Source: Deltaproteobacteria bacterium RIFOXYA12_FULL_61_11 (GTDB lineage: Bacteria; Bdellovibrionota_F; JAHFAK01; YA12-FULL-61-11). From it: DNA of 9,419 nucleotides. The DNA lies in the NCBI GenBank assembly GCA_001799195.1, contig MGSU01000149.1, positions 1 to 9,419 of the forward strand, in the 5' to 3' direction. A program made the position numbers and the translations under genes. Shown piece by piece: positions 269 through 7,338 of the stretch (its first letter is position 1; each line of letters opens with the position of its first letter). Below the pieces are notes generated by a model. It saw nothing but the letters and a program-made list of their open reading frames with translations, was not told the DNA's origin and searched no databases.

Positions 269-550
269 CTACTGAGGCTCACCGCAGCGTGGACACTTCT
301 GAGGTACCCACGCGGTCCAAAAATAACATTCCCATCCGAATATTCGAACTGGATTTAGAAGTATCGGTTTTTTACAACGAGGACAAGCTAACCGAAGGCT
401 CCATATTCCGATAATGAAAAAAAGGAGAAATAATGGAATAAGAAATAAATGACTCACTACAGCGGTCGCCACCAATAACAAGAAGCCAACTAGAAACCAA
501 GTCGCAACAAGTCGATGAAAGGTCTTTCGCATAGACGCAATGCAACTCAT
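269..550 (-). CDS. Small membrane zinc-ribbon protein, candidate immunity partner of the RHS tip
   Basis: This 93-residue protein has a hydrophobic region from about residue 15 to 52 that fits two membrane helices in a tight hairpin. A cytosolic-looking tail follows with two CPRC knuckles (C56/C59 and C86/C89) spaced as a zinc ribbon. Its ATG (550-548) overlaps the RHS stop codon (549-547) as ATGA. I see no good Shine-Dalgarno, so translation is probably coupled to RHS translation. The gene shares the AT-rich composition of the RHS tip, unlike the GC-rich core. Small genes directly behind RHS tips usually encode the cognate immunity protein, and position, overlap and composition all point there. 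I do not recognise the family, and neutralising activity is inference. It could instead be an unrelated membrane protein. Confidence 0.7.
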   Translation of the reverse strand: MSCIASMRKTFHRLVATWFLVGFLLLVATAVVSHLFLIPLFLLFFIIGIWSLRLACPRCKKPILLNPVRIFGWECYFWTAWVPQKCPRCGEPQ

Positions 551-951
551 TGGCTACACGCGTTTTCTTGGGAAGTTGGAGTTCCGAATAAAAATGTTGT
601 TCCAGTTTCTGCAATCGCCGTCGACGCGCTGTATGTCGTTGCACTGGGACCGATACCAATAGTTCCGCCTACGAACTCCCCTGTTTGTGGATTGAAGAAA
701 GCACTAATGCTGATAGGACCAATGCTAATGTTCGTATTTACTGTGGAACCTTCAATATTCTCTGCATCGCCTAAAATCACACCGATAAAAACATCGCCAG
801 AAATGTTCAGCCCAGCACTTCCACCAACGCTTGCAAATCCTCCTGCGGCAGGTTTTTGTCCAAAAAGTCCCGGATTGACGAAAATACCACCGCTGGCTTC
901 ACCGCCAGTAATCCCTGTAACTGTTCCACCCGCACCCGCAATGACATTGAT
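547..951 (-). other. RHS C-terminal tip domain (variable, Gly/Ser-rich)
   Basis: These bases encode the last 134 residues of the RHS protein (584-717), directly after the DPSGL motif where RHS proteins typically switch from conserved core to variable tip. The tip is rich in Gly, Ser, Thr and Ile with alternating polar/apolar stretches (for example GGSAGLNISGDVFIGV and STVNTNISIGPISISAFF), suggesting a beta-rich fold. I see no catalytic motif of a known nuclease, deaminase or ADP-ribosyltransferase. Base composition drops to clearly AT-rich here. It may be a toxin of unknown mechanism, possibly membrane-acting, or a structural or adhesive tip. Confidence 0.65.
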
Positions 952-3049: not shown

Positions 3050-4258
3050 ATGAAACGCATGCTCTTGATGGGCATTCTTGCAGTGTTTTCATGCGGTTGG
3101 ATGGTTGACCAGGTCGAGGGGCTCGCCGATAAACTCTCGAAGGAGAAGAAACCCCAGCTCGAGGAACAGGTCGCAGGAGACCTGCAGTGTCCCTTAGAGA
3201 GCATCACCGAAGGCCTCGACGAGTGCCAATTCCACTCCCTCGACGTGGTCGAGAAGGCCAGCCTGGGGCTCGCGAGCCTCCGCGACAAGATAGCCTCCCT
3301 GGAGTCCCTCGCGGGCAAGCTCCCGGAAGACAAGGCCACCAAGATACGGGAAGAACTGGCAACGCTCAAAGAGCGACTGGCCGAAGGCGAGAAGAATGTT
3401 CACGACCTCTACGAGTCCAATCTCCTGCGCAAGGCGACTCTCCAGGTACTCGCCCACCCCGATGCTCACCGCTTTGTGCTCTTGACCACCAACGCCGAGG
3501 GCGCCTTCGACGACCCTGCCGGCGAATCCACTTTAAAGGTCTTCCATCGCAATGCAAAGGGCGAGAAGACCCCGGCGACGGTGCGATCCCTCTCCCGGCT
3601 CGGTTCACAGAAGACCCCCGCCGGCACCGCACACCTGGCCCTGGTCCTGGACAACAGCACGAGCATGACCCGGTGCGACCTCGAGCGTCTCGCTTCGGCG
3701 AGCACGACCCTGCTGGAGGCGCTGCCCACGGCGGTGTCCCCGGCCATTCTCAAGTTCTCCGACGCTACCCACCTCACCTCGCCCTTCGGCTCCGATCCTT
3801 CCTGGCTGCGGCTCGACACCCGCATGGCCCTCTCCGACCGTTATGCCACGGCGCTGTGGGACGGCTCCATCGCCGGCGTCGACGCGGTCGTCGAGGCTCG
3901 CACCGGCGATACCCTGCTCGGCCTCGTGGTGGTGCTCTCCGACGGCGCGGAGAACGCTTCTTCCGCGACGCGCGAGCAACTCATCGCCCGGGTACGGGAG
4001 GAAAAGATCCCCGTGCTCATGGTCGGTCTCGGCCTGATCGATCTCGGAGACATGCTGGACCTCGTGATAGCCAGTCGGGGGTACCTGCTCTACACCCCCT
4101 TCTCCGACGATCTCTCCAAGGTCTTCGGCATGGTCGCCGAGTTGCTCTCCTCCCTGCTGGTGGTCGAGACCGAGGAACCCGGCGCTGGAGTGGAGTCGGT
4201 GGTCTTCTCCGCAACCCTGTCCGACAAGCTCGTCGAGGACACGGTCGAGGTGCGCTGA
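3050..4258 (+). CDS. von Willebrand factor A domain protein, putative lipoprotein
   Basis: The product is 402 residues. The N-terminus (MKRMLLMGILAVFSCG) looks like a lipoprotein signal with the lipid Cys at 15, although Phe before Ser-Cys is not an ideal lipobox. Residues about 25-125 are charged and helical with heptad-like stretches (LRDKIASLESLAGKL, ELATLKERLAEGEK) that could form a coiled coil. A vWA domain spans about 193-370 with a complete metal-ion-dependent adhesion site: DNSTS (D201, S203, S205), T267 in YATALWDG, and D298 in LSDGAEN. vWA domains bind protein partners through a divalent metal. The partner here is unknown. The start at 3050 is chosen because it begins the signal sequence and follows GGGGG by 5 nt. 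An in-frame ATG at 2984 has a strong GAGGAGG only 1 nt away and would bury the signal. The gene follows yhbY by 80 bp and precedes the GH5 gene by 14 bp, so co-transcription is likely. Confidence 0.85.
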   Translation: MKRMLLMGILAVFSCGWMVDQVEGLADKLSKEKKPQLEEQVAGDLQCPLESITEGLDECQFHSLDVVEKASLGLASLRDKIASLESLAGKLPEDKATKIREELATLKERLAEGEKNVHDLYESNLLRKATLQVLAHPDAHRFVLLTTNAEGAFDDPAGESTLKVFHRNAKGEKTPATVRSLSRLGSQKTPAGTAHLALVLDNSTSMTRCDLERLASASTTLLEALPTAVSPAILKFSDATHLTSPFGSDPSWLRLDTRMALSDRYATALWDGSIAGVDAVVEARTGDTLLGLVVVLSDGAENASSATREQLIARVREEKIPVLMVGLGLIDLGDMLDLVIASRGYLLYTPFSDDLSKVFGMVAELLSSLLVVETEEPGAGVESVVFSATLSDKLVEDTVEVR

Positions 4259-4259
4259 C

Positions 4260-4265
4260 GGGAGG
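4260..4265 (+). promoter_or_regulatory. Shine-Dalgarno selecting the GTG start of the GH5 gene
   Basis: GGGAGG sits 7 nt before GTG 4273 but 13 nt before the in-frame ATG at 4279, so the GTG is the better start. It begins one base after the vWA stop codon, which fits an operon with termination-reinitiation. Confidence 0.65.
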
Positions 4266-4272
4266 TGCTCGC

Positions 4273-5655
4273 GTGGACATGCTCAGGGTTCGTTCCGGCC
4301 ATATCGTCGATACCGCGGGTAGGCCGGTCCGGCTGCGCGGGGTCTGTCTCGGTGGGTGGTTGAACCAGGAGAACTTCATCACCGGGTATCCCGGGGCGGA
4401 GAGCGCCTGGCGCGACGCTCTTGCCTCCGCGTTGGGGCCCGAGCGCGCCGAAGGCTTCTTCAAAAACTTCCTCGATTGCTTCATCACCGACGCCGATCTG
4501 GCCTACCTCGCTTCGCTGGGAGCCAGCGTGGTACGCATCCCTTTCAATTACAGACACTTCGAGGACGACAAGCACCCTGGGAGTTTCAAGGACACCGGTT
4601 TCACGCGCCTCGACCATACTCTTGAGCTGTGCCGACGCCGCGGGCTCTATGCCATACTCGACCTGCATGCCGCCCCTGGTTGGCAGAACCCGGACTGGCA
4701 CAGCGACAATACCGGCACCGACGCCCTGCTCTGGGAGCATCCCGGGTTCCGCCAGCGCACGGTCGCCTTATGGGCAGCACTGGCCGAGCGCTATCGAAGC
4801 CGGGCTTGCGTGGCCGGATACAACCTCCTCAACGAACCGGTCGCCCCCGACCCAGAGGCGTTGAACCAGTTCTACCGCGAGGTCACCGCCGCGATCCGCT
4901 CAGTGGATAGCGAGCACCTGTTGTTCCTCGAGGGGAACCACTTCTCGGTCGACTTTTCCCAACTGGAAGCGCCCTTCGACGAGAATACCGTCTACAGCTT
5001 GCACTACTACGTGACCCCGGGTTTTGCCACGATGAGCTACCCCGGCGAGCACCTGGGCAAGCGCTATGACCTCGACAGCATGGCCGAGGACTACGCCGAA
5101 CGGCGTGCCTTCATGACCCGGCACCAGGTGCCCTGCTGGGTTGGGGAATACGGGGTGGTCTTCAAGAACGAACGCAGCCCCGAGGATCGGCTGCGCTGCC
5201 TCTCCGACCTGCTGGCGATCTTCGAGCGCTTCGGCGACCACCATACGTACTGGACATACAAAGACATCGGCGTGATGGGGCTGGTCACCGTCGCTCCCGA
5301 GAGTCCCTGGATGGTCGCCACCCGTCAGGGTCGCGACCACAAGCGCTTGCTCTCCACCGATTGTTTCGCCATGGATCGGGGAGACGTAAGGATCCAGGTC
5401 GATCATCTGCTCGAGACCGTGGGTTCGCTGGTGGGCAGGGACTGTCTGGACCTCGACCGCTTGCGTTCTCGGCTGTACCGGGCCGTGTTCGGGGTGGTCC
5501 TTTCCGAGGCGCTGTTGCCCTCCTACGCCGCGGCGTTCAAAGGGTTGGATCAGATCACGCTCGAGGGACTCGCAGATTCTTTCCGCTTCGAACGGTGTGT
5601 CCCGCGCCGTGAGGTGGCCAAGCTCCTGGCCAAGACCTTCCGCCTGCCCGCCTGA
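4273..5655 (+). CDS. Glycoside hydrolase family 5 (cellulase-like) enzyme
   Basis: The product is 460 residues from the GTG start. The opening RGVCLGGWLNQENFI is typical of GH5 enzymes of the endoglucanase/exo-1,3-glucanase type. The expected GH5 active-site set is visible: R88 (VVRIPFN), H132 (LHAAPGW), N187-E188 (NLLNEP, acid/base), H244 and a following Tyr (SLHYY), E292 (WVGEYG, nucleophile) and W327 (TYWTYKD). GH5 enzymes hydrolyse beta-linked glycans with retention of configuration. The exact substrate cannot be assigned from the sequence. No signal peptide or membrane segment precedes the domain, which is unusual for a polysaccharide hydrolase and suggests cytoplasmic work on imported oligosaccharides or glycosides, or a non-classical export route. 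A helical C-terminal extension (about 360-460) follows the barrel and has no function I recognise. It lies 14 bp behind the vWA gene and ends 12 bp from the convergent LamG gene, with no terminator visible between them. Confidence 0.9.
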   Translation: MDMLRVRSGHIVDTAGRPVRLRGVCLGGWLNQENFITGYPGAESAWRDALASALGPERAEGFFKNFLDCFITDADLAYLASLGASVVRIPFNYRHFEDDKHPGSFKDTGFTRLDHTLELCRRRGLYAILDLHAAPGWQNPDWHSDNTGTDALLWEHPGFRQRTVALWAALAERYRSRACVAGYNLLNEPVAPDPEALNQFYREVTAAIRSVDSEHLLFLEGNHFSVDFSQLEAPFDENTVYSLHYYVTPGFATMSYPGEHLGKRYDLDSMAEDYAERRAFMTRHQVPCWVGEYGVVFKNERSPEDRLRCLSDLLAIFERFGDHHTYWTYKDIGVMGLVTVAPESPWMVATRQGRDHKRLLSTDCFAMDRGDVRIQVDHLLETVGSLVGRDCLDLDRLRSRLYRAVFGVVLSEALLPSYAAAFKGLDQITLEGLADSFRFERCVPRREVAKLLAKTFRLPA

Positions 5656-5667
5656 ACCGCGGTCGAT

Positions 5668-7338
5668 TCATCCGCAGTCCGGTCTCCCTGCCTCGAGACA
5701 GAGCTGATGCGGGGAGACCACGCCGTGGAAGAGCTTGACCTCGTCCAGAGCACCGCGGAAGAAGCCTCCGCCCGCGAGATTCGCTCCCAGGAAGAGCGCA
5801 CCGCCGTTGCCGCGCGGGGGGGCACCGGTCGGATCGCAGTGTTCGTCGAGACAGCCGCTGCGGGCGAGCCGCCCATCCTGGTAGATCGCGGCCCGTCCGC
5901 CGACGAAATCGACGATCGCTGCGAGATGGGACCATTGGCCCGGCGGAACGATGCCTCCGGTGAGGTGAGCGGTGGTGCCGGCAACGCTGAAATCGCAGCG
6001 CGCGGTCAGGACGAGCGCACCTTCGGCGTCCCGCGTCTGGTGCAGCCACAGAGCTACCTCGGCCGAGGTGTGTTGCGATCCCCCGCTGGCCAGGATGACT
6101 TGATTGTCGCTGAGCACCTCCGGTTTGACCCAAGCGGTGACGGTGAGCTGCCCGGAGAGGTCGACGAGGGCATTGCCGACCGCTCCGAGGTGCTCTCCGG
6201 CGACGCCGAGGTAATCGTCGATCCCATCGAAGGCCAAACCTCCTCCGAAGCGACCCTCGGCGACCGGGGTTGCACCGACGAGATCGCCGTCGTGACCATT
6301 GCCGCTCTCATCCTTCGCCATCCCCTGTGCGACCTGCGAGAAGGCCCAGTGAGCGGCGGGAAGGACCGGCGCGTGGAGGACAGGGGTGGGATGGGTGAGC
6401 AGCACCGCGGGATCGTCGAAACGTCCTGGCGGCGCCAAGGGAGCCTGGAATTGCTGATGGACGAGCAACTCAAAGGCCCCGTCCTCGCGATAGGTCGCCA
6501 TGGACTGGAGGTAGAGGAACGAGGTCTGACGGTCCTGAAGGGGTCCGGCGACCGGGCGGAAACCATCGACCAAACCTCCGACTAGGAGGAACCGCTCACC
6601 CTCTTGTTTTCCGACAATGCCTTGCAGGGTCAGGGTCCTAAGTCGGCCCTTTTCCGCCCGATCGAGCGTGCCCAGGTGCACGGTGTCTTGGTCCTCGAGG
6701 GTCACGGAGAGATTGCCGAAGGTGCCGGCGCCGAGCTTGGCCCTGGTGGCCACGAGGGAGGTCGTGGTCGCCGCGGCCAGATTGAAGGCGCCGTGCTCGA
6801 CCTGTAGGGGTACCTCGTCGGCCGTGCCGTCGTCCGCCCGGCGCAACAGTTTGACCTGGTTCAAACGCAAGGAGGACGTCGGCTTGACCTGCCCGTCGAG
6901 CCGGGTGGCGTTGAGGACCACGATCACATCGGCCTCTCCCGCGGCGAACGAGGAACCGAGGTGGAAGCCGTCGGCGGGCGCCAAGAGAGCGCGGAAGAGC
7001 TCGCCGTTCTCGGGCACCACGATCGAGGACAAGGTCGAGAGGTCGGTGCGTGCGAAGGGATTACCGGTGTCGGTTCCACCCGAGAAGGGGTTGCCGGTAT
7101 CGGTCCCGCCGGAGAAGGGATTGCCGGTGTCGGTTCCGCCGGAGAAAGGATTGCCGATGTCCGAGCCTCCGGAAAAACTCAGGTCCGGGTTGAGGAACTG
7201 GAGGTTTTCTCGCACCACGACCAAGTTGGGGTCGACCTGCTCCTGTTCTTCATCATCTCCGGACAGGACGAACTCCGGGATGGCGCACCCCAAGAAAGCG
7301 AGGGAAGCGCAGAGGACGACCTCCAGGCGCTCGATCAT
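5668..7338 (-). CDS. LamG-domain putative lipoprotein with tandem-repeat linker
   Basis: The product is 556 residues. The N-terminus (VVLCASLAFLGC) resembles a lipoprotein signal with Cys at 18, although Phe at -3 is not a standard lipobox. An acidic stretch (GDDEEQEQ) follows, then four near-identical decapeptides (SGGTDTGNPF type, residues 56-95) that form a flexible linker. Residues about 100-325 form a beta-rich region I do not recognise. Residues about 329-549 match a LamG/concanavalin-type jelly roll (LamG_3-like): GNGHDG, GRFGGGLAFDGIDDYL, LTVTAWVKP, GQWSHLAAIVD, YQDGRL and FRGALDEVKLF are typical. Such domains bind carbohydrate or protein at the cell surface. Four Cys near the C-terminus (496, 501, 547, 555) could form disulfides. 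The ATG overlaps the upstream regulator stop as ATGA, and GGAGG lies 7 nt ahead at 7346-7350, so translation is probably coupled. TIGR02147 regulators are known to sit beside lipoprotein genes, which supports surface localisation. Confidence 0.82.
   Translation of the reverse strand: MIERLEVVLCASLAFLGCAIPEFVLSGDDEEQEQVDPNLVVVRENLQFLNPDLSFSGGSDIGNPFSGGTDTGNPFSGGTDTGNPFSGGTDTGNPFARTDLSTLSSIVVPENGELFRALLAPADGFHLGSSFAAGEADVIVVLNATRLDGQVKPTSSLRLNQVKLLRRADDGTADEVPLQVEHGAFNLAAATTTSLVATRAKLGAGTFGNLSVTLEDQDTVHLGTLDRAEKGRLRTLTLQGIVGKQEGERFLLVGGLVDGFRPVAGPLQDRQTSFLYLQSMATYREDGAFELLVHQQFQAPLAPPGRFDDPAVLLTHPTPVLHAPVLPAAHWAFSQVAQGMAKDESGNGHDGDLVGATPVAEGRFGGGLAFDGIDDYLGVAGEHLGAVGNALVDLSGQLTVTAWVKPEVLSDNQVILASGGSQHTSAEVALWLHQTRDAEGALVLTARCDFSVAGTTAHLTGGIVPPGQWSHLAAIVDFVGGRAAIYQDGRLARSGCLDEHCDPTGAPPRGNGGALFLGANLAGGGFFRGALDEVKLFHGVVSPHQLCLEAGRPDCG
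7051..7170 (-). repeat. Four tandem 30-bp repeats inside the LamG gene
   Basis: Four consecutive 30-bp units (about 7051-7080, 7081-7110, 7111-7140, 7141-7170) encode the decapeptides TDTGNPF plus SGG, with the unit nearest the N-terminus diverged to SDIGNPF. The period is a multiple of three, so copy-number change would alter linker length without breaking the frame. Differences between units are mostly at third codon positions, which suggests selection on the peptide. Confidence 0.9.

Follow-up and report, generated by a model that had tools for sequence, protein, structure and literature searches.

The C-terminal tip of an RHS open reading frame and the small gene that overlaps its stop codon are predicted to form an exchangeable RHS effector–immunity cassette, that is, an antibacterial toxin and its antidote (probability about 0.85). 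Conservation of the pair, its linkage, its sharp borders and its occurrence on unrelated cores argue for such a cassette and for a new family. The cassette is ordinary in kind, an RHS polymorphic toxin–immunity system; the family is new. It would extend the RHS arsenal by one toxin–immunity family, from phyla in which RHS effectors have hardly been studied, and the tip and small gene are small enough to be directly testable by co-expression.

The window, i.e., the whole stretch of DNA analyzed here, is the entire contig C149 (9,419 bases) of a 4.64 Mb genome assembled in 342 contigs. The RHS frame runs on the minus strand from position 2700 to 547 and encodes 717 amino acids. Its core domain is recognized by Pfam and NCBIfam profiles (PF05593, E 2e-49; TIGR01643; TIGR03696). 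The gene is 5'-truncated, a point absent from the sequence-only reading of this DNA, with an RHS-like part that is limited to residues ~55–583. No N-terminal export or delivery part (signal peptide, PAAR or plug) was found in the frame, which starts with non-RHS sequence overlapping yhbY, and the DNA homology of the core to a paralogous core fragment on contig C52 ends at 2540. The second core piece, located behind the small gene, matches the RHS cores of L079, L074, L121 and others in tblastn searches, with E values down to 4e-8. A short GGGGTTA/GGGGTTG repeat is found at positions 52–80, by the left contig end, where this second piece loses its frame, and is possibly an assembly edge.

Table 1. 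Features of the window and related loci (positions without a locus name refer to the window)
Feature	Position	Strand	Remarks
Second RHS core piece (upstream part of a core)	36–266	−	Begins directly behind the small gene; cut by the contig end
Small gene, predicted immunity gene	269–550	−	93 aa; two membrane helices, then zinc-ribbon-like C..C / C..C
Zinc-ribbon-like segment of the small protein	284–385	−	Cys 56, 59, 86 and 89 invariant in five copies (alignment A7)
Two-helix hydrophobic hairpin of the small protein	395–511	−	About residues 14–52; preceded by basic residues; hydropathy scan
Tip (effector candidate)	547–951	−	134 residues (584–717), INVIAGAGG to stop; follows DPSGL
DPSGL, end of core and start of tip	952–966	−	Equivalent DPMGL in L143 directly precedes the breakpoint
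Partial RHS core	952–2538	−	Residues ~55–583; nine YD/RHS repeats and RHS-associated core domain; lacks N-terminal half
Non-RHS 5' extension of the frame	2539–2700	−	Overlaps divergent yhbY (2655–2969, +)
Tip homologue	L047:735–1106		50%
Tip homologue	L137:1483–1860		40%
Tip homologue	L146:1492–1854		56%
Tail GGFVxYPNKPNxNxMxxVYAK	L143:1143–1217, 2137–2229, 5150–5242		
Tail GGFVxYPNKPNxNxMxxVYAK	L127, L130, L131, L133–L135		Genome G430
Tail GGFVxYPNKPNxNxMxxVYAK	NZ_CP023670.1:149557–149613		

The conserved unit of the tip corresponds to about its residues 1–118. The sequence-only reading had described the 134 residues after DPSGL as Gly/Ser/Thr-rich and devoid of known toxin motifs, and both statements hold. 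The coordinates are confirmed, the tip contains 20% Gly and 51% Gly, Ser, Thr and Ala combined, with one basic and eight acidic residues, and profile searches against Pfam, NCBIfam, PADLOC, PHROGs and PDB sequences returned no family match. Searches with the tip alone against genome contigs, plasmids and the PDB gave no significant match, nor did searches of phages with the L047 tip or searches of viral contigs. The four known members of the family had no relevant match in Pfam/NCBIfam at E values up to 1–10, pore-forming toxin families included, and the match to a non-toxic domain that had been named as evidence against an effector did not come up in the profile searches. Judged from these comparisons, the tip family is new and so far without a name. 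An alignment of the four tips has 34 invariant positions, 14 of which are glycine; E18 and D53 are invariant acidic residues. The hallmarks of a classical nuclease or another enzymatic tip were not found: across the four tips there is no invariant His, Cys, Lys or Arg (nor Tyr or Trp), and no family match. Structure models of the tip reached a mean pLDDT of 38 with one sequence and 35 with two; they display strands only and are too poor to trust. Composition, together with the strands in these low-confidence models, suggests that the tip is β-rich. By eye, the tip could plausibly be read as internally duplicated, with two hairpins and an FxNP turn, but profile–profile comparison of its halves returned nothing.

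The base composition of the tip had been read as AT-rich DNA fused to a GC-rich core. The contrast itself is real and is clearest at third codon positions, with a GC3 of 35% in the tip against 72% in the core. The tip has a GC content of 47.8%, the core 56.3% and the rest of the window 62.7%; it is low in GC only relative to its surroundings, and "AT-rich" is thus a relative term. Moreover, the drop does not coincide precisely with the tip border at 951 but starts at ~1050–1000, within the last codons of the core.

The same tip was found in three further genomes at 40–56% identity, namely a Desulfobacula MAG (L047) and two genomes of the Desulfobacula phylum, G491 and G1293, the latter from the class of G491. 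These relatives were reached with a query comprising the core end and the tip, and then with a profile. The query produced one locus with a match through the tip, L047, at 52% identity over query residues 3–177; the L047 tip alone is 50% identical to the window tip over 118 residues. The C-terminal tail of L047 was excluded from the profile because it matches unrelated RHS tips. The profile search then led to G491 and subsequently to G1293. Of the four known members of the family, three belong to a single phylum. Wide sampling of other phyla, covering a small fraction of known genomes, revealed no further tip, and on this basis the family looks rare. Conservation of the tip and its adjoining gene in three other genomes means that the original observation exceeds chance. 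The first wide genome search also gave 27 weak matches (E 0.01–0.1) that lack an RHS core motif and were attributed to chance. Three weak candidates (L138, L140 and L141) were left out, and L139, a Gly-rich RHS tip with mere resemblance (E 0.004), was not counted.

The G1293 tip lies on an open core–tip frame of 2119 residues. In G491 the core and the tip are in different frames (L137/L142, about L137:1812–2046), indicating that this copy is either broken or misassembled. A tail with the pattern GGFVxYPNKPNxNxMxxVYAK is common to quite different RHS tips of Desulfobacula, a Thiotrichaceae MAG and a Methylomonas plasmid (Table 1); it is absent from the window tip.

A homologue of the small gene lies directly behind the tip in all four tip loci. 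In the window, the small overlapping gene that had been noted directly after the tip is confirmed, and shares four bases with the RHS stop (ATGA, 547–550). In L047, an ORF at 1210–1536 overlaps the tip stop and is homologous to the window gene (30% identity, E 7e-15); in G491 the tip is followed by two tandem homologues, and in G1293 by one. A small-gene profile run on 80 genomes detected five copies, all of them beside the tip, so that the gene occurs in 4/4 tip carriers versus 0/76 other genomes (Fisher p 6e-7). A linked, conserved gene that is found, among these 80 genomes, only beside the tip fits an immunity gene. All five copies combine a hydrophobic hairpin with four invariant cysteines, as seen by hydropathy and alignment. 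The window gene has a GC content of 43.3% and a GC3 of 38%, and in both the window and L047 the tip and the small gene share a low GC3 relative to their own core. The profile also weakly matched L154, in the genome of the window itself, but without the cysteine pattern, and this match appears to be due to chance. Behind a different RHS tip, a gene at L113:593–886 (+) encodes two membrane helices and a CxxC..CxxC arrangement with weak likeness to the small gene (E 0.0015), and a similar gene is located at L084:7056–7385. By their sequences, these two genes perhaps point to a broader class of membrane immunity proteins with a zinc ribbon.

The borders of the exchanged unit are resolved on the Desulfobacula contig L143. 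Bases 1–735 and 4013–4748 of this contig are core copies with 90% identity; the tip starts at base 735, while the second core copy runs on into a different one. Core-end sequence restarts at 1538, two bases past the small-gene stop (1536), and is followed by a further displaced tip; the neighboring displaced tips carry their own small genes. From these breakpoints, the exchanged unit is therefore the tip plus the small gene, and nothing more. The cores themselves are of different types. The window and L047 have plain RHS (YD) cores, whereas those of G491 and G1293 contain TcdB-midN and FG-GAP regions in Pfam searches, with the tip ~100–200 residues behind DPxG. Window and G1293 tips are 56% identical, against 28% for the cores. 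A YD-repeat core with an RHS-associated core domain precedes the window tip, and the tip is swapped between cores after DPxGL, as in L143. The sequence-only reading had asked whether the same tip occurs on unrelated RHS cores and had regarded a tip tied to one core as contrary evidence; the former was found, with an exact core/tip border, and the latter is not the case. Its proposal of a possible new effector gains support from this exchange and from the linked immunity-like gene. The Desulfobacula array of RHS tips ends with a tyrosine-recombinase-like fragment (L143:5954–6241, −).

With respect to the mode of action, we narrowly favor, as the best overall explanation, a cassette that pairs a membrane-damaging, non-enzymatic, β-rich tip with a two-helix membrane immunity protein. 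The tip would be released at DPSGL, reach a neighboring bacterium, and insert into the cytoplasmic membrane as a β-rich, non-enzymatic toxin that dissipates the membrane potential. The small two-helix protein would bind the tip in the producer's own membrane, with its zinc ribbon on the cytoplasmic side. The lack of conserved residues of catalytic type and the Gly/Ser/Thr-rich make-up render a membrane-active β-toxin the most likely reading, and, once an effector–immunity cassette is granted, a membrane mechanism is rather probable. The earlier suggestion of a membrane-inserting tip likewise fits the predicted two-helix partner, the absence of catalytic-type residues and the composition. Against the β reading, the RHS and CDI ionophores known to us are helical. 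If the membrane mechanism is true, the pair would represent an RHS-delivered β-type ionophore whose membrane antidote contains a zinc ribbon. Tentatively, the tip may define a new RHS toxin class, in which insertion into the cytoplasmic membrane as a Gly-rich β structure is countered by an antidote joining a membrane hairpin to a cytoplasmic zinc ribbon.

The linkage and exchange described above are independent of mechanism, and the same cassette might carry an enzyme or a binder that acts elsewhere, on the envelope, on a lipid-linked precursor or in the cytoplasm. The membrane immunity protein could then block entry, tether the toxin or counter it elsewhere in the envelope; two-helix immunity proteins might indeed prevent uptake (Zhang et al., PMC3482391), and E18 and D53 would be available as invariant acidic residues. 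This alternative is nevertheless unlikely for an acidic, Gly-rich tip without conserved His, Cys, Lys or Arg that matches no enzyme family. Less probable by a wide margin is a non-toxic, structural or adhesive tip, with the small gene as a membrane accessory for its display or anchoring. Compositions rich in Gly, Ser and Thr are common in structural β segments, but the swap of a cassette at DPxGL with a single linked small gene is the pattern of toxin–immunity pairs, the small gene is tandemly duplicated in G491, and the displaced tips of L143 have small genes of their own.

A comparison with characterized systems reveals both likenesses and differences. Tse5-CT/Tsi5 of Pseudomonas aeruginosa likewise combines an RHS tip without an enzymatic motif and a small two-helix membrane immunity protein; two membrane regions are predicted for Tsi5, the partner of pore-forming Tse5, and a zinc ribbon is not described for it in the cited part of the source (PMC9637101). 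By contrast, the window tip is Gly-rich and β-like, and there is no family match between the two systems. The immunity proteins of CDI ionophores (CdiI) are very hydrophobic two-helix hairpins of 72–100 aa, hence of similar size to the small protein, and their pairs also have low identity (PMC11630599). Here, however, there is no Pfam match, the helical ionophore fold differs, and delivery is by CdiA rather than RHS. Ntox25, an ionophore family with a predicted β-barrel and the only one so reported, shows that a β-type ionophore may exist (PMC11630599). Zinc is not mentioned for the CDI ionophore systems in that source, whereas the small protein has a predicted zinc ribbon. Two membrane helices also make up the immunity proteins Imm-CdiI and Imm17 (Zhang et al. 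2012, PMC3482391). The defining features of Imm17 are WxW and an Arg between its helices; in the window protein, four invariant cysteines follow the helices. As read from the sequence, the zinc ribbon is an addition absent from the cited immunity proteins.

By analogy, the layout of the window is that of an orphan (displaced) Rhs-CT/immunity module. Orphan Rhs-CT/RhsI modules of Enterobacteriaceae are displaced fragments, expressed only after recombination with a full rhs gene (PMC3967940), and they share with the window a partial core, DPxGL, a variable tip, an immunity gene directly behind it and further core pieces. In the window, the core begins only at residue ~55 and the further piece lies at 36–266. 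The differences concern the tip and immunity families, the remote phylum and activation by recombination, which was not seen in the window. The cassette would thus be parked on a 5'-truncated core, and would have to recombine onto a complete RHS gene for export; with no export domain, the window copy may be silent. It is also conceivable, albeit with less than even odds, that the window pair is a decaying relic, a non-functional or unexpressed copy of a real family, which is compatible with the cassette reading. The core lacks its 5' half, the frame start overlaps yhbY, the second core fragment is broken at the contig end, and C52 carries a further fragment of this core. However, both the frame of 717 codons and the small gene are intact, the tip retains the conserved positions, and recombination is known to recruit orphan modules (PMC3967940).

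Elsewhere in the window, a lipoprotein-like ORF with a LamG domain (5668–7338, −) contains, close to its N-terminus, (SGGTDTGNPF)n encoded by a 30-base tandem repeat at 7054–7177.
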